NCBI GenBank assembly: GCA_934567355.1
Contig: CAKTJC010000027.1
Coordinates: 1-40,082 of the forward strand
Direction: 5' to 3'
Source: an uncultured Oscillospiraceae bacterium
GTDB taxonomy: Bacteria > Bacillota > Clostridia > Oscillospirales > Oscillospiraceae
Length of the DNA: 40,082 nt
Positions 13,512 through 21,541 of this stretch are shown here, piece by piece. A program made the translations under genes and the position numbers. Under the pieces are notes generated by a model, which saw only the letters and a program-made list of their open reading frames with translations, had not been told where the DNA came from and ran no database searches. The stretch's first letter is position 1. Every line of letters begins with the position of its first letter.

Positions 13512-13603
13512 ATCTGCAAATCATTTCAAAAGAATGATTTATGCAGGATGCCGAAACAAATTATGCATGGAATCCTGCGAAATATTTTAAGGAGGAAACA
13601 AAC

Positions 13604-15760
13604 ATGAAGAAACTTTTCGCAATGATGCTGGCTGTCGCTATGGTTCTGTCCATGGTCATGGTTGGCAGCGTCTCTTCTTCCAAGGTTGTTGCGATGTCCG
13701 ACCTGGGCGACGCCATCGATCAGCTGACCGAAGATTACGACGAGAACTCCGCTACTCTGTATGATTATGTCCTGGGCGACTTCTATGCTGCCTACGAGGA
13801 AGCCAAGTCCATCGACGACGCTTCCGAAGCTTGGGCCAAGATGGCTATCGCCGAGGCCAAGCTGCTGGAGGCCGGCGTGATGCTGCCCACCACTACCAGA
13901 GGCGGCAACTATGCCATTTCCCGCATTGCTCCGGGCACCGTCACTCCCATCCTGTACGGCAATGACAAAGACCGTTTCCAGAACTACCTGATCGCCACCG
14001 AATTCATCAAGGCCGAGGACCGCGCCGAGATGAAGGCTCACTATAACGAAGTCAAGGGCACCGGCACCTACATGGAGTGGGCGAAGAACTACCTGACCGA
14101 GAAGGGCTATACCCTGACTGATGTCTACGGCTATCCCTCCTACACCGCCGACCCCAAGACCTGGGACTATTTCGCCACCTCCCGCGCGGCCGACTCCGAG
14201 GCCATTGTGAACGGCCTGGAAATGCTGCTGGAGTATGACGTGGAAGGCGTGCAGCAGCCCGCTCTGGCCACTGGCTACACCGTGTCCGACGACGGCCTGA
14301 CCTACACCTTCACCATCCGTGAGGGCGCTGTCTGGGTCGACTCTCAGGGCCGTAAGGTCGCTGACGTGACCGCTGACGACTTTGTCGCCGGCTTCCAGCA
14401 CATGCTGGACGCTCAGGGCGGCCTGGAGTTCCTGGTCAGCGGCGTCGTGAAGAACGCTGCCGAGTATATCAGCGGCGAGATCACCGACTTCTCCGAAGTT
14501 GGCGTCAAGGCTGTTGACGATTACACTCTGGAGTACACTCTGGAGGCTCCCTGCCGTTACTTCGTCACCATGCTGGGCTACAACCCCTTCGCTCCTATGA
14601 GCCGTGAGTACTACACCTCTCAGGGCGGCCAGTTCGGCCAGGATTACGATCCCTCCGCTGAGACCTACACCTACGGCACTTCCCCCAACAACATCGCCTA
14701 CGTCGGCCCCTATGTTGTGACCAACTTCACCTCTGAGAACACCATCGTGTTCCAGGCCAACGAGTCCTACTGGAATGCTGATAACATCAACATCCACACC
14801 ATCAACTGGATCTTCAACGACGGCACCGATGTGACCAAGGCCTACACCGACTGCAAGAACGGCATCGTTTCCGGCGTCGGCCTGAACACCACCACCGTGG
14901 AGCTGGCCAAGGAGGATAAGCTGTTCGACGATTACGCTTATGTTTCCAGCACCGACGCCACCTCCTACATGGCTTTCCTGAACATCTACCGTGAGGCCTA
15001 TGCCAACGTCAATGATGAGAGCACCGTCGTCTCCACCAAGACCGACGAGCAGAAGGATGCCACCGCCGTTGCCATGCTGAGCCAGAACTTCCGCCTTGCT
15101 CTGTGCACCTCCGTTGACCGCGCTGCCTACAACGCACAGAGGGTCGGCGAAGAGCTGAAGATGAACAACCTGCGTAACTCCTACACTCCTGGCAACTTTG
15201 TCACCCTGACCGAGGACGTCACCGTTGACATCAACGGCGAAGCCACCACTTTCCCCGCCGGCACCAACTACGGTGCGATCATGCAGGCTCAGATGACTGC
15301 TGACGGCTACCCCATGAAGGTTTATGATCCCGCTGCCGACGACGGCGCCGGTTCCTCCGATACCTTCGACGGCTGGTACAACCCCGAAGCTGCCAAGGCT
15401 TACATGGACGCCGCCGTTGCCGAGCTGGCTGAGCTGGGTTACGAGGTCACTCCCGAGAACCCCATCGTTGTTGATTATCCCTACGCTTCCAACAGCGAGA
15501 TCTACGTCAATACCGCTATGGCTCTGAAGAAGTCCATTGAGGACGCTCTGGGCGGCCTGGTCGAGATCAACCTGATTTCCTGCGTTGACTACAACGAGTG
15601 GTACTACGCTGGCTACTACACCGACTTCGGCTACGAAGCCAACTACGAGATCTACGACCTGTCCGGTTGGGGTCCCGACTACGGCGATCCTTCTAGCTAC
15701 CTGGACACCTTCCTGCCTGATTATGCCGGCTACATGATCAAGTGCATCGGCATCTACTAA
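13604..15760 (+). CDS. oppA: Oligopeptide-type substrate-binding protein, apparently circularly permuted
   Basis: The ATG at 13604 lies eight bases after GGAGG and gives 718 residues. The signal peptide (MKKLFAMMLAVAMVLSMVMV) lacks the lipobox cysteine typical of Gram-positive binding proteins. Right after it comes a block (about 45-130: LYDYVLGDFYAAYEEA, KMAIAEAKLLEAGVMLPTTT, RGGNYAISRI) that in ordinary clostridial OppA proteins forms the C-terminus. Only then come the usual N-terminal landmarks: DPKTWDYFATSRAADSEAI, LATGYTVSDDGLTYTFTIRE and VTADDFVAGFQHMLD. The protein ends shortly after LSGWGPDYGDPSSYLDTFLP, exactly where the moved block would normally follow. I read this as a circular permutation (inference). 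Codon use is strongly biased, suggesting high expression. It heads the oppABCDF operon and should deliver peptides or similar solutes. Confidence 0.85.
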   Translation: MKKLFAMMLAVAMVLSMVMVGSVSSSKVVAMSDLGDAIDQLTEDYDENSATLYDYVLGDFYAAYEEAKSIDDASEAWAKMAIAEAKLLEAGVMLPTTTRGGNYAISRIAPGTVTPILYGNDKDRFQNYLIATEFIKAEDRAEMKAHYNEVKGTGTYMEWAKNYLTEKGYTLTDVYGYPSYTADPKTWDYFATSRAADSEAIVNGLEMLLEYDVEGVQQPALATGYTVSDDGLTYTFTIREGAVWVDSQGRKVADVTADDFVAGFQHMLDAQGGLEFLVSGVVKNAAEYISGEITDFSEVGVKAVDDYTLEYTLEAPCRYFVTMLGYNPFAPMSREYYTSQGGQFGQDYDPSAETYTYGTSPNNIAYVGPYVVTNFTSENTIVFQANESYWNADNINIHTINWIFNDGTDVTKAYTDCKNGIVSGVGLNTTTVELAKEDKLFDDYAYVSSTDATSYMAFLNIYREAYANVNDESTVVSTKTDEQKDATAVAMLSQNFRLALCTSVDRAAYNAQRVGEELKMNNLRNSYTPGNFVTLTEDVTVDINGEATTFPAGTNYGAIMQAQMTADGYPMKVYDPAADDGAGSSDTFDGWYNPEAAKAYMDAAVAELAELGYEVTPENPIVVDYPYASNSEIYVNTAMALKKSIEDALGGLVEINLISCVDYNEWYYAGYYTDFGYEANYEIYDLSGWGPDYGDPSSYLDTFLPDYAGYMIKCIGIY

Positions 15761-15789
15761 GCAGAAATTTCCAAATGTAATGCATCGCT

Positions 15790-15811
15790 CTGGGGCGGGA
15801 GACCGCCCCAG
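15790..15811 (+). terminator. Strong hairpin between oppA and oppB
   Basis: CTGGGGCGG and CCGCCCCAG form a perfect nine-bp stem closed by GAGA. No T-tract follows, so it more likely protects the 3' end of oppA mRNA or partly terminates. That would give more binding protein than permease, as in many transporter operons. Confidence 0.55.
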
Positions 15812-15857
15812 ACGACTGCGCTTTATACGGGCTTCACGAAGCAGAAAATTAATGGTT

Positions 15858-15909
15858 GGAGGATGGGCCATTAAGTCCATCCTCCTTACCACATATATAT
15901 GGGTGTGGT
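15858..15909 (+). promoter_or_regulatory. Two hairpins in front of oppB, one close to its start codon
   Basis: GGAGGATGG (15858-15866) pairs perfectly with CCATCCTCC (15877-15885). ACCACA (15888-15893) pairs with TGTGGT (15904-15909), only three bases before the oppB ATG. The first hairpin buries the only good GGAGG sequence and the second covers the spacer, so oppB translation should be low unless the structure opens (inference). Confidence 0.45.
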
Positions 15910-15912
15910 ATT

Positions 15913-17481
15913 ATGACAAAATATTTAATTAACAGAATACTGAGAAGCATTGTCTCCGTCTTCCTGGTTGTGGCGCTGGTAATGGTCCTCATCTACTCTT
16001 TGATGGATCGAAACCTGATTTTTGCGCAGGATCCGCTTTACACGAAGCAGTCTAACAACCAGAAAGAGGCATACAAGTACCGCAAATGGGAAGAGTATGG
16101 CTATCTTGACTATGTCCCCTATGTGGAATGGCTTAATGAAATGGTCAAGAAGGGTGAAATCACCCAGGAAGAGCGGGACGCCGTGGTTAAGTTCGGCGTC
16201 AAGCCCGAGAACGACTCGGACGCGGTGGCCGAAATGGTCGCCAAATTCACCGAATACTATGAATCCCAGGGCTATACCGTGGTTCGCCTGAACGGTCAGA
16301 AAACCGGTAAGAAGTATAAGCCCGGCGGAAACGAGCAGCTCTTCGCCTATAAGGATAAACCGCTGATCAGCCGTGTGCTGAATTATTTCGGCGGGCTCCT
16401 CACCGTGGATAATATTCATAGAGTGCAGGAGGACATCGGCGAAAGAAAGCTGACCTTCACTTTGAAAGACCCTGTGTACGGCGGGGACAAGTTTGCCCCG
16501 GCCATCATCGGCAACGGCACGACCCATAAGTACCTGCTGTATACAGATAATATTTTCCCCTATGTTCATCAGAATCTGCTCACGCTGAATCTGGGCAAAT
16601 CCTATGTGGAATTTGCCGGTATCGACGTGTTTACCGTCATGACGAGAACCCAGGGCTCCTACGTCAAGTCCACCGTCACCTATCCCACCGGCTTGGTGGA
16701 GCAGAGCGCCGACGACCTGCACACCGCGACCTATGTGGCAGGCTCCCGCTCGATGAGCGCCCTGGCAGCGGAGCGGTTTACCGACGACTACACCAATGTT
16801 GGAACCGTGGACAACAACATGTCCAAGATGGGCTTCTCCTTCGTCATCGGCATTATCGCCACCTTCATCGCCTATATCCTGGGCGTGCCTCTGGGCATCC
16901 TGATGGCGCGCAACAAGGATAAGCTGCTGGACAAGATCGGCACCCTCTATATTGTGTTCATCATGGCGGTTCCTTCCCTGGCCTATATCTTCATGTTCAA
17001 GGCATTTGGCGGCGCAATCGGTCTGCCGACCACCTTCGATATGGAGTCCAACAATAAGCTCATGTTTGTGCTGCCCATCATTTCGCTGGCGCTGCCCTCC
17101 ATCGGCGGCCTGATGAAATGGATGCGCCGGTATATGATCGATCAGATGAATGCCGACTATGTGAAGTTCGCCCGCTCCGGCGGCCTGTCCGAGGGCGAGA
17201 TCTTCAGCAAGCACATCATGAAGAACGCCATCATCCCCATTGCCCATGGCATCCCTGCCAGTGTGCTTGGCGCGCTGACCGGCGCCATCATCACCGAGCG
17301 CGTGTATGTGGTTCCCGGCGCGGGCAACCTGCTGACCAGAGCCATCAACAACTATGATAACGGCGTGATCGTGGGTATGGTGCTCTTCTATGCCACCCTG
17401 AGCGTGACCTCCATCATTCTGGGCGACGTGGTAATGAGCCTGGTTGACCCCAGAATCTCCTTCTCCTCGAAAGCTAGGTGA
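15913..17481 (+). CDS. oppB: Oligopeptide ABC transporter permease with enlarged extracytoplasmic domain
   Basis: After a first helix (about 7-30, ILRSIVSVFLVVALVMVLIY) the protein has roughly 270 residues outside the membrane. The standard permease core resumes near residue 305 (FSFVIGIIATFIAYILGVPL). The coupling-helix EAA motif is FARSGGLSEGEIFSKHIMKN. Total length is 522 residues against about 310 for ordinary OppB, the difference being the external domain. The ATG at 15913 begins at the membrane helix; a start at 15856 would lie inside the hairpin region. It is followed five bases later by oppC. The extra domain may dock the binding protein, which has no lipid anchor (inference). Confidence 0.88.
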   Translation: MTKYLINRILRSIVSVFLVVALVMVLIYSLMDRNLIFAQDPLYTKQSNNQKEAYKYRKWEEYGYLDYVPYVEWLNEMVKKGEITQEERDAVVKFGVKPENDSDAVAEMVAKFTEYYESQGYTVVRLNGQKTGKKYKPGGNEQLFAYKDKPLISRVLNYFGGLLTVDNIHRVQEDIGERKLTFTLKDPVYGGDKFAPAIIGNGTTHKYLLYTDNIFPYVHQNLLTLNLGKSYVEFAGIDVFTVMTRTQGSYVKSTVTYPTGLVEQSADDLHTATYVAGSRSMSALAAERFTDDYTNVGTVDNNMSKMGFSFVIGIIATFIAYILGVPLGILMARNKDKLLDKIGTLYIVFIMAVPSLAYIFMFKAFGGAIGLPTTFDMESNNKLMFVLPIISLALPSIGGLMKWMRRYMIDQMNADYVKFARSGGLSEGEIFSKHIMKNAIIPIAHGIPASVLGALTGAIITERVYVVPGAGNLLTRAINNYDNGVIVGMVLFYATLSVTSIILGDVVMSLVDPRISFSSKAR

Positions 17482-17486
17482 TTGAT

Positions 17487-18464
17487 ATGAAAAATGAAAA
17501 AGTGAATCTGGATGACCTGGGCTTTTCCGAACAGGAGCTGTTCTCCCATGTGGACAACGATGTGAACAGTGCCGAGAAGATCACGGCGCCCCGCTACTCC
17601 TATTGGAAGAGCGTGTTCCGCGTGTTCTTCAAAAAGAAGATCAATATCGTGGTGCTGAGCCTGCTGGCCGCAGTGATTTTCATCACCTATATCTACCCGC
17701 TGATTACAAATTACGATGCCTATGTGAATCTGCTGGATTCCGGCGCAAAGCATCTGCGCCCGCTGGCCGCCATGAAGCGCTTCGGCTATAACCTCCACTG
17801 GATCCTGGGCACCGGCGCTTCCGGCAACTCCACCTTTGACGCCGTGTGGAACGGCGCAAAGATCTCCATCTCCATGGCCTTTATGTGCGCCCTGATCAAT
17901 ATGACCGTCGGCGTCATCATCGGCTCCGTCTGGGGCTTCTCCAAGAAGATGGACGTGTTCATGACCGAGGTCTACAACATCATCGGCAACGTGCCCTATG
18001 TGCTCTTCGTCTCCGTCATGGTGCTGGTGTTCTCCCCCAGCTTCTGGACGATGGTCTTTGCACTGACCATCACCGGCTGGCTGAGCATTGCCTACTTCAT
18101 CCGCACCCAGGTGGTCATCATCCGCGACCGGGAATACAACCTCGCTTCCCGCTGCCTCGGCACCTCCACCATGACCATCGCCATGAAGAACATACTGCCC
18201 TTCATGACCTCCGTGATTGTCACGCTGGCGGCCACTGAGATCCCCTCCTATATTTCCTACGAGGTGTTCCTCAGCTTCCTGGGCATGGGCATGTCCGAAA
18301 TGTCCCTGGGTCGTCTGATCGGCGCGGCACAGAGCGCCATGGTCACTCCCGGCTGGGAATTCGAATTCTGGAGCCCCGTGGTGGTCGTATCCATCGTCAC
18401 CGTGGTGCTGTATGTGGTTGGCCAGAATCTGGGCGACGCTTCCGACCCCAGAACCCACATGTAG
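17487..18464 (+). CDS. oppC: Oligopeptide ABC transporter permease
   Basis: This 325-residue second permease has a cytoplasmic N-terminal tail of about 50 residues, a first helix (INIVVLSLLAAVIFITYIYP), a modest external segment and the binding-protein-dependent transport core. Its EAA motif is ASRCLGTSTMTIAMKNILPF. Size is near normal for OppC/DppC, unlike its OppB partner. The ATG at 17487 follows AGGTGA with short spacing; GTG at 17478 would overlap the oppB stop. The downstream oppD start has AAGGAGG just beyond the oppC stop. It forms the channel with OppB in the cytoplasmic membrane. Confidence 0.9.
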   Translation: MKNEKVNLDDLGFSEQELFSHVDNDVNSAEKITAPRYSYWKSVFRVFFKKKINIVVLSLLAAVIFITYIYPLITNYDAYVNLLDSGAKHLRPLAAMKRFGYNLHWILGTGASGNSTFDAVWNGAKISISMAFMCALINMTVGVIIGSVWGFSKKMDVFMTEVYNIIGNVPYVLFVSVMVLVFSPSFWTMVFALTITGWLSIAYFIRTQVVIIRDREYNLASRCLGTSTMTIAMKNILPFMTSVIVTLAATEIPSYISYEVFLSFLGMGMSEMSLGRLIGAAQSAMVTPGWEFEFWSPVVVVSIVTVVLYVVGQNLGDASDPRTHM

Positions 18465-18476
18465 AAGGAGGACAGT

Positions 18477-20225
18477 ATGGAAGAGAAAAAGGTTCTTTTG
18501 TCTGTCCAGGATCTGGTTGTGAAATTCCATGTCCGCGGCAGAGTCCTCACCGCCATCCGGGGCATCTCCCTGGATATTTATGAGAATGAGTCCATCGCCA
18601 TCGTGGGCGAGTCCGGCTCCGGCAAGTCCGTCTTTACCAAGACCTTTGCCAACATGCTCGATTCCAACGGCTTTGTGGATCAGGGCAAGATCATCTTCTC
18701 CGACGATACCCTGGCCGATTTCAAGGTCACCCTCGGCCCCGCCCAGCACCGCATGATCGCGCGGCTGGCGCAGAGACTGGATTCCTACTCCAGCCTGGAA
18801 AACGGCGCGGAAGTTTATAAGCAGATGAAGTGCCTGGAGTCCGAGGACAAGCAGCGCAGAACGCTGACCGCGGACGAGGAGAAGGAGATTGAAGAGAAGC
18901 TGGCCGACCTGCGCTATGAGCGGGCGGAAACCTTCAACCTGAGGCAGACCTTCGACCCCAAGAAGGAGAAGGACAAGATCCATCAAGCCTCCGCCAAGCT
19001 CTCCCAGCTGGATCGCCAGATCAAGGAAGTGGAATCCCGGGAGAAGGCCACCATCAAGCAGCGCACCGCCGATGTAAAGAAAAACAACTACTATCAGGCG
19101 GACTACGCCAAGAAGATGGACGAGCTGAAAAAGAAGTACCGCGAGGCCTGCGCCGCTCCCGTCACCCAGGAGCAGAAGGAGCGCAACGCCCAGCTGGCGA
19201 AGGAAATTTACCTGTCCATCGGCCGGTATGATTTCGTCACCCGCCAGAAGATCCTCAGAAAGCTCATGTCCTGCATGAAAGAGGCCATGCGCCAGGGGCT
19301 GGATCTGAGCAGCGACGAGGTGCGCAACGATGTGTTCGCCCCCGCCATCTACCGGGTCAAGCTGCTGGATGAAACACCGGAGAAGCTGCACGGCAAGTGC
19401 GTCTTCGACCTGGCAAACATCAAGTATCAGAAGGATCTCTCTCAGATTCGCGGCAAGCGCATTGCTACCGTGTTCCAGGATCCCATGACCTCCCTGAACC
19501 CCATCCTGACCATCGGCGACCAGATCTCCTCCATCATCCTCAAGCACCAGCAGTGCTCTGAGACGGAGGCCAGGATCCGCGCCATTGAGCTGATGAAGAA
19601 GGTGGGCATTCCCAATGCCGAGAACCGCTACGACGATTATCCCTTCCAGTATTCCGGCGGCATGCGCCAGAGAATCGTTATCGCCATTGCCCTGTCCTGC
19701 CAGCCCAAGATCCTCATCTGCGACGAGCCCACCACCGCGCTGGACGTGACCATCCAGGCGCAGATTCTGAAGCTCATCAAGGATCTGCAGAAGGAATTCG
19801 GCTACACCATCGTGTTCATCACCCACGACCTGGGCGTGGTTGCCAACATCGCCGACCGCGTGGCCGTGCTGTACGCCGGTCAGATCGTGGAGCTGGGCAC
19901 CGTGGAAGAGGTTTTCTACGATCCCCGCCATCCCTACACCTGGGCAATGCTCTCCAGCCTGCCCCAGCTGGCGCAGCGCAATACGGAGCTGTATTCCATC
20001 ACCGGTACGCCCCCGTCCCTGTATAATACCATCGTGGGCGACCCCTTTGCACCCCGCAATCCGTACTGCCTGAAGATCGATACGCTGAAGGATGCCCCCA
20101 TGTTCCAGGTGAGCGAGACCCACTTCGCCAAGACCTGGCTGCTGGATCCCAGAGCGCCCAAGATCGAAAAGCCCGAGGCCATCCAGAACCTTCATGAGAA
20201 GCTTCTGAAAGCCTTCAACATCTGA
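18477..20225 (+). CDS. oppD: Oligopeptide ABC transporter ATPase with about 200-residue insertion
   Basis: The ATPase motifs are complete: Walker A GESGSGKS (about 44-51), Q-loop [11 protein letters not shown] (about 331), signature YSGGMRQR (about 392), Walker [13 protein letters not shown] (about 412) and H-loop ITHDLG. Walker A and the Q-loop are some 280 residues apart where about 80 is normal. The insertion (about 85-320) is highly charged and helical with coiled-coil character ([35 protein letters not shown]). The C-terminal oligopeptide-transporter extension is present but has lost most of its usual cysteines. Total length is 582 residues against about 330-350. The gene is bounded by AAGGAGG ribosome sites on both sides in the opp operon. 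Confidence 0.9.
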
Positions 20226-20242
20226 TAAGGAGGTTATGCATC

Positions 20243-21541
20243 GTGAGTAATGCACAAGAGGCGACTGCCAGACATTTCCCGGAGCATGGCCCCATCGACC
20301 CCAAGACCGGTAAAGAGGTGCTGCTGTCCCTGAAGAATGTGGACATCACCTTCGGCAAGGGAGACAAGGCGCTCAAAGCCGTCAGCAATGCTTCGTTCGA
20401 TATTTACAAGGGCGAGACCTTCTCGCTGATCGGTGAATCCGGTTCCGGCAAGACCACCATCGGCCGCGCCGTCATCCGGGTCAACCCCTGCTCTGCCGGT
20501 GAGATCCTCTATAAGGGCGTCCGCATTTCCGGCAATATTCCCCACAGCCTTGACCGCGAGGTCATCCGCAACATCCAGATGGTTTTCCAGGATCCCGCCG
20601 CGTCCCTGAACGAGCGCGCCACCGTGGACTATATCATCTCCGAGGGTCTGTACAATTTCCATCTGTACAAAGACGAGGCTGACCGGGTGCAGAAGGTGGA
20701 CAACATCATCAAGGAAGTGGGATTGCTGCCCGAGCACCTGACCCGCTATCCCCATGAGTTCTCCGGCGGCCAGCGGCAGAGAATCGGCCTGGCCCGCGCT
20801 ATGGTCATGGAGCCCGAGCTGGTGGTGGCCGACGAGCCTATCTCCGCTCTGGACGTGTCCATCCGCGCCCAGGTGCTGAACCTGCTGAAAAAGTTCCAGC
20901 GGGAGCAGGGCACCACTTATCTGTTCATCGCCCATGACCTGTCCATCGTGCGGTTCATTTCCGACCGCATCGGCATTATCTACAAGGGCAATATCGTAGA
21001 GGTCGCCGAGGCCGAAGAGCTCTTCGACTTCCCCATGCACCCCTACACCCACAGCCTGATTTCCGCCATCCCCATCCCCGACCCCGTGCTGGAGAAGAAC
21101 AAGGAGCTGTACACCTACGACCCCAGCATCCACGACTACTCCGTGGACAAGCCGGAGCTGGTGGACATCGGCAACAACCACCTGGTTTACGGCAACAAGG
21201 CAGAAATTGAGCGCTATAAGAAGCTTCGCGCCGAGGGCAAGAAGATCAAGTCCATCACCATCCTCACTCCCGAGGAGAAGGCAAAGCGCGACGCCGAGCG
21301 CGAGAGCGTGCCCACCGGTGAAGTGGTGCTCGATCACCCCGTTCACGATACCGGCAGCTTCTGGTATAAGTTCCTGGCGTTCTTCCTGCCCATCCTGGGC
21401 TTGCTGGGCGGACTGATCTTCAAGGCGAAGAATTATATCAACAATTACAAGGCACTCAAAAAGGGCGCCATCGTCGGTCTGATTTTCCGGCTCGTGGTGC
21501 TGCTGCTGTTTGGATTGCTGCTGATTCTGGCCACAATTTAG
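20243..21541 (+). CDS. oppF: Oligopeptide ABC transporter ATPase with C-terminal membrane helices
   Basis: The start is GTG at 20243, nine bases after AAGGAGG; the ATG at 20236 runs straight into a stop. Motifs are Walker [11 protein letters not shown]-loop [12 protein letters not shown], signature [15 protein letters not shown], Walker [15 protein letters not shown] and H-loop IAHDLS. The normal OppF end ([18 protein letters not shown]) is followed by about 110 extra residues: a charged linker and two hydrophobic helices ([17 protein letters not shown] and [19 protein letters not shown]) at the very C-terminus. A soluble ATPase with its own membrane anchor is unusual. It is the last gene of the operon, before a strong hairpin. 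Confidence 0.9.

Follow-up and report, generated by a model that had tools for sequence, protein, structure and literature searches.

A putatively circularly permuted oligopeptide-binding protein at the head of an Opp-type operon in gut Clostridia

We analysed a stretch of 40,082 nucleotides from an uncultured Oscillospiraceae bacterium (GenBank assembly GCA_934567355.1, contig CAKTJC010000027.1, positions 1 to 40,082 of the forward strand), hereafter the window. It carries a gene for an OppA-type oligopeptide-binding protein whose C-terminal segment appears to have moved to the front of the chain by circular permutation. The + strand frame is open to 15760, with possible starts at 13541 and 13604. 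The translation contains the motifs quoted in a first-pass annotation, made by a model from the letters alone, and their order is as stated there. The features of the gene are the following:

13604..15760, + strand: permuted oligopeptide-binding protein gene, 718 amino acids (open reading frame list, Pfam, ribosome-binding site)
13589..13595, + strand: ribosome-binding site AAGGAGG, read from the sequence upstream of the ATG at 13604, which makes this ATG, with its 718-residue product, the better start
13604..13693, + strand: predicted signal peptide region, residues 1-30, without a lipobox cysteine in the window clade
13733..13897, + strand: first part of the moved block (residues ~44-98), corresponding to the stretch of AliD, ~529-582, that closes Domain III of lobe 2 (profile alignments; domain limits from the available passages of PMC11192437)
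13898..14011, + strand: second part of the moved block, residues ~99-136, counterpart of AliD 583-617, with which Domain I of lobe 1 ends (same sources)
14012..14059, + strand: third part of the moved block, residues ~137-152, matching the alpha19 helix at the C-terminus of Ali proteins (helix predicted at 137-150, alignments; same passages)
14060..14119, + strand: new linker from the old C-terminus to the old N-terminus, residues 153-172 (about 20), missing from the nine unpermuted rows of the alignment
14120..15757, + strand: ordinary N-terminal and middle part in normal order, residues 173-718 (Pfam, PDB and structure alignments)
15665..15691, + strand: GWGPDYGDP motif, whose W689 and D692 align with AliB W500 and D503
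15692..15757, + strand: newly formed C-terminus at the cut point, 22 residues long, the last of them aromatic (residue count after the motif)

An antisense frame of 788 amino acids lies opposite the gene on the - strand (13526-15892); similar frames oppose several window genes and look mechanical.

Judged from its sequence, the 718-residue product is an SBP_bac_5 protein of the AmiA/Ali-like oligopeptide-binding kind. Its sole Pfam domain is SBP_bac_5 (PF00496) at residues 218-705, with 134.8 bits against a gathering cut-off of 32.4, and residues 1-217 gave no Pfam match in a scan up to an expectation value (E) of 10. The nearest solved structures are Ami/Ali proteins, with pneumococcal AmiA, AliB, AliC and AliD at the top of a phmmer search of the PDB, and W689 and D692 of the peptide-holding motif are invariant in 32 of 32 sequences. 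Because Pfam covers residues 218-705 only, the first 170 residues resemble an unknown extra domain; the SBP_bac_5 model also stops near the WGPDYGDP motif and is therefore blind to the fate of the C-terminal segment.

The changed chain order is visible with the single sequence: in the phmmer search, query residues 173-703 matched AmiA chain residues 14-497, and a piece at 64-149 matched, out of order, chain residues 532-613. Such pieces are weak singly and fall short of significance (6.1 bits for AmiA 532-613, and 11.9 bits for query residues 62-133 against AliB chain residues 520-591). With a profile built from 14 blocks (A3, residues 40-172), a search of 177635 PDB sequences retrieved AliD 503-609 (E = 1.1e-6), AliB 517-610 (1.3e-6), AmiA 516-622 (9e-6) and AliC 519-616 (1.7e-5). 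These are the only four matches below E 1e-4 and all lie in the Ami/Ali C-terminal segment; up to E 1 two further matches were found, both at 0.17. When 51 blocks were aligned by hhalign with the C-termini of 13 of 19 unpermuted relatives, described below, the probability was 99.6 and E was 2.2e-24 over 105 columns. Among nine slices of the 19-sequence unpermuted alignment, the two C-terminal ones gave 7e-23 and 1e-24 and the other seven 0.003-0.6, while column-shuffled alignments gave E between 0.2 and 0.8 in five of five cases. The equivalent of helix alpha19 is present in the window protein, as an aligned segment coinciding with the helix predicted at 137-150, but it is internal.

These results support the proposal that the window protein is a circular permutant of an OppA-type chain. 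The first-pass annotation had set a C-terminal-type block directly behind the signal peptide, which agrees with a block at residues ~44-152 followed by a linker of about 20 residues; it was also right that the classical N-terminal part comes late in the chain, although this part starts near residue 173 and not 150. It had named two other possibilities. The C-terminal lobe might be complete elsewhere in the protein; the C-terminal segment has a single match there, with no second copy. Alternatively, the N-terminal 170 residues might be an unrelated extra domain on a truncated OppA, which would suit the missing Pfam assignment of residues 1-217. We regard this as highly improbable: SBP_bac_5 is confined to the later part of the chain, the block profile finds Ami/Ali C-termini in the PDB, the blocks align with the C-termini of unpermuted relatives, and the slice and shuffle controls are negative. 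An unrelated domain was excluded on these grounds.

We then asked how the two chain orders are distributed among relatives. For this, we searched the genomes of two classes with a core profile (A2) and those of one order with the divergent permuted relative L082; core and block were then scored in the open reading frames of 80 loci (L001-L080), 40 stretches and 11 wider ones. L001-L080 carry a bias, as the best 80 of 444 recovered with permuted queries, and some come from one genome; some of the weaker A2 matches (G468, G569, G500, G486, G541 and G562 among others) and the L082-search match G765 were left out of the sample. The block precedes the core in 98 proteins (80 of 80 in L001-L080, five of five in L092-L096, L081, L082, and 11 of 11 in L101-L111) and follows it in 19 (L083-L091, L097-L100 and L112-L117). 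The class of G001 yielded matches at 1e-70 in five of 391 genomes, every one of them permuted (no more than three candidates received a score in each genome, among the matches listed); the order of G614 did so in 14 of 150 genomes, of which the 13 retrieved are all permuted. The genomes of 11 relatives have one full-length core match each, and four of them one extra partial match (E <= 1e-20). PF27766, a precomputed Pfam domain of the homolog P0041, failed to appear in a direct scan of P0041.

An assembly or frame artefact has a negligible probability. Among the 120 sequence homologs listed, out of 6233 at E <= 0.001, the block comes first in 119, from many contigs and sources, the only entry without it being the shorter, 562-residue P0057; moreover, all 80 of L001-L080, selected as stated, are permuted within one open frame. 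The permutation is real, old and widespread in gut Clostridia. The annotation had located the event in this gene; with 98 permuted proteins counted, it belongs instead to an ancestor common to a large family. Its wider claim of a circularly permuted OppA is sustained by the out-of-order PDB match, the block profile, the relatives' alignments, the block-order counts and the controls.

The cut point and the new junction were located with an alignment of ten permuted and nine unpermuted rows, viewed in part. Both sets align end to end once their parts are set in ordinary order. Unpermuted chains continue past ..GDMLKYFGL.. into the block, whereas permuted chains end at ..GYMIKCIGIY. The annotation had the protein stop about 20 residues after GWGPDYGDP, and the count is 22. 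Among 96 permuted proteins the number of residues after WxPDYxDP is 22 (83 proteins), 21 (9), 27 (3) or 24 (1), two of the 98 lacking the pattern, compared with 128-149 in the 19 unpermuted ones; the final residue is Y, F or W in 93 of the 98. At the junction, the unpermuted C-terminus corresponds to residue ~152 of the window protein or to a position slightly beyond. The linker that leads from there to the old N-terminus reads GTGTYxxWAKxYLxEKGYTLKD in the main permuted group and is longer in the deep group.

The outgroup consisted of the three distant OppA-type proteins L118-L120. In each of the three the segment lies C-terminally (A5 profile searched in a small set, E 9e-8 to 1.5e-4), which marks the ordinary order as ancestral. 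In a tree built from 61 cores (a selection of 39 permuted ones, 19 unpermuted and three from the outgroup), the unpermuted proteins form one group (SH-like approximate likelihood ratio test, SH-aLRT, 99) and the permuted ones two groups at a near-trichotomy. Constraining the permuted cores to one group gave a tree 8.2 log units better (approximately unbiased test, p-AU 0.67). One old permutation event fits best, while the tree does not prove it.

To place the cut in the fold we used the domain limits of AliD given in the available passages of PMC11192437, where lobe 1 comprises residues 29-63, 191-296 and 583-617 together with Domain II (64-190), lobe 2 comprises 297-582, and a C-terminal helix at 622-652 is called a hallmark of Ali proteins. 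By alignment the cut maps near AliB 530, inside lobe 2; residues ~44-98 complete lobe 2, ~99-136 belong to lobe 1 and ~137-152 to the extra helix. In AliB, according to the same passages, W500 and D503 grip the amino end of the peptide, and N52 and A54 form a peptide-contact loop close to the old N-terminus (PMC11192437); this loop would now be internal. We consider it very probable that the window protein is the binding protein of an Ami/Opp-type oligopeptide importer (OppA-B-C-D-F operon), a protein whose chain, ordinary at first, was opened at a single place, in a lobe 2 loop directly behind the peptide-holding W/D motif, and whose old ends, both on lobe 1, were joined through the linker of about 20 residues. 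The product would fold as a normal two-lobed trap; conservation and the operon suggest that it would bind peptides by the amino end, close, and deliver them to OppBC. A cut inside lobe 2 would shift the signal peptide and the anchor side from lobe 1 to lobe 2, so that the signal peptide, together with the lipid anchor in relatives having one, would enter the fold at lobe 2. The permutation thus probably keeps the shape of the protein and changes the half that is tied to the cell.

As to origin, the route that the annotation proposed, a tandem duplication with later trimming of both ends, is plausible. Among open reading frames of at least 300 residues in 120 loci, none has the segment at both ends, as a duplication intermediate would. 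A structure model of the block alone was searched without a confident match; such an outcome is unsurprising when two parts of a bigger fold are taken by themselves, yet it gives no support and would suit an extra domain. The tether argument is weakened by the lipobox cysteine, which 87 of 97 untruncated permuted loci have (79 by pattern, eight by eye) and ten lack, namely the window clade, with the window protein itself, and several other lineages. This absence is repeated, and a tether advantage therefore cannot explain everything. The lipobox pattern has no match in three of the 19 unpermuted proteins, and some cysteine-less lineages carry signal-peptidase-I-like ends. The missing intermediate also leaves room for a chimera, in which a different Ami-like paralog contributed its C-terminal segment to the front of the protein, whose own C-terminus was lost, with a product that would look alike. 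Identities speak against it (same ten permuted and nine unpermuted rows): they are 0.34 for the core and 0.28 for the block between main permuted and unpermuted proteins, 0.37 and 0.30 between main and deep permuted ones, and 0.47 and 0.42 among the nine unpermuted ones. Block and core thus drop in parallel, as would two parts of one protein, and we hold a chimera to be unlikely and a permutation of one chain to be the better account.

The binding-protein gene leads an operon whose further genes, at 15913-21541, encode two permeases and two ATPases:

15913..17481, + strand: OppB-type permease, with ~320 residues ahead of the Pfam transport domain
17478..18464, + strand: OppC-type permease (open reading frame list, Pfam)
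18477..20225, + strand: OppD ATPase (open reading frame list, Pfam)
18708..19406, + strand: charged insert of 233 residues in OppD, residues 78-310 (alignment, profile)
20243..21541, + strand: OppF ATPase (open reading frame list, Pfam)

By analogy, the N-terminal ~320 residues of the OppB-type permease resemble those of AmiC-like permeases with a large part that is presumably extracellular. Where at least 6.5 kilobases lie downstream (64 loci), a complete OppB-C-D-F stands behind the permuted gene in 61; L072 has no separate OppF, and L029 and L073 lack all four in that place. The OppD frame of L072 (8134-11220) has 1029 residues and is possibly an OppD-OppF fusion. Two unpermuted loci, L121 and L122, show no OppB-C-D-F in the 16 kilobases read, an OppF-like ATP-binding cassette (ABC) protein of 538 residues (78 bits) following instead. 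Between the binding-protein gene and OppB lies a perfect 10-base-pair GC-rich hairpin without a T run (15789-15812), possibly an mRNA-stabilising element; of the corresponding gaps of relatives, 75 of 80 contain 40 bases in a row with a folding energy <= -15 kcal/mol, a count with no shuffled control.

The OppD insert sits between what we take to be the Walker A and Q-loop regions. In a nine-sequence alignment it measures 233 residues in the window and 233-242 in five other permuted rows, and is absent from three unpermuted rows. A profile of 140 columns, built from the six permuted rows and covering part of the insert, matched the OppD frames downstream of permuted genes in L001-L080 (71 of 71) and in deep permuted operons (four of four), and none of four, a small sample, adjoining unpermuted genes. 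That both permuted groups share the insert argues that their operons go back to one ancestral permuted operon. We put forward, tentatively and with considerable doubt, that these operons represent a class of oligopeptide importer of their own, ancient and common among gut Clostridia. In it two linked changes, a permuted trap that is tethered or exported via lobe 2 and has its old ligand-contact N-terminus inside the chain, and an OppD rebuilt with ~233 residues, would have altered both the holding of the trap and the driving of the pump.

The permuted form has been inherited by many gut bacteria, and unpermuted sister proteins are available for comparison, which makes the role of the tether position in the trap testable; the case also illustrates that annotation by a 'middle' domain model can overlook a rearrangement. 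1ola, which we take to be OppA of Salmonella typhimurium, and other OppA/DppA proteins differ in their ordinary chain order. 'Domain dislocation' is reportedly an older proposal for the fold types of binding proteins. The window protein shares with AmiA, AliB, AliC and AliD of the Streptococcus pneumoniae Ami system its SBP_bac_5, cluster C membership (PMC11192437, available passages), with core identities of 31-34% in structure alignment, as well as the peptide-holding W/D motif, an equivalent of the C-terminal helix (an extra helix that the same passages describe as absent in OppA), a long OppB/AmiC-type permease and an Opp-type operon. It differs in carrying their C-terminal ~110 residues at the N-terminus, and so in departing from the order with Domain I first, in its new linker and other anchor side, and in the missing lipobox of its clade; the OppD insert is a further difference, judged against the OppD of unpermuted relatives and not against pneumococcal AmiE. 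Among the open-access PubMed Central papers listed for our queries we found no permuted peptide-binding (cluster C) protein. The one published natural permutant that we found among ABC-importer binding proteins is, according to the available part of PMC4990184, TpMglB-2 (Tp0684) of Treponema pallidum, a sugar-binding lipoprotein with circularly permuted topology that also occurs in Gram-positive bacteria, for which the names Type Ic and Cluster Bc were proposed and tethering was raised as a possible reason. The 50 structure matches listed for the window protein include no type I sugar-binding protein, its class placement resting on SBP_bac_5 membership. TpMglB-2 is of type I / cluster B, another fold class than the peptide-binding one described here (PMC4990184, same part), and the two permutations would thus presumably be independent events.
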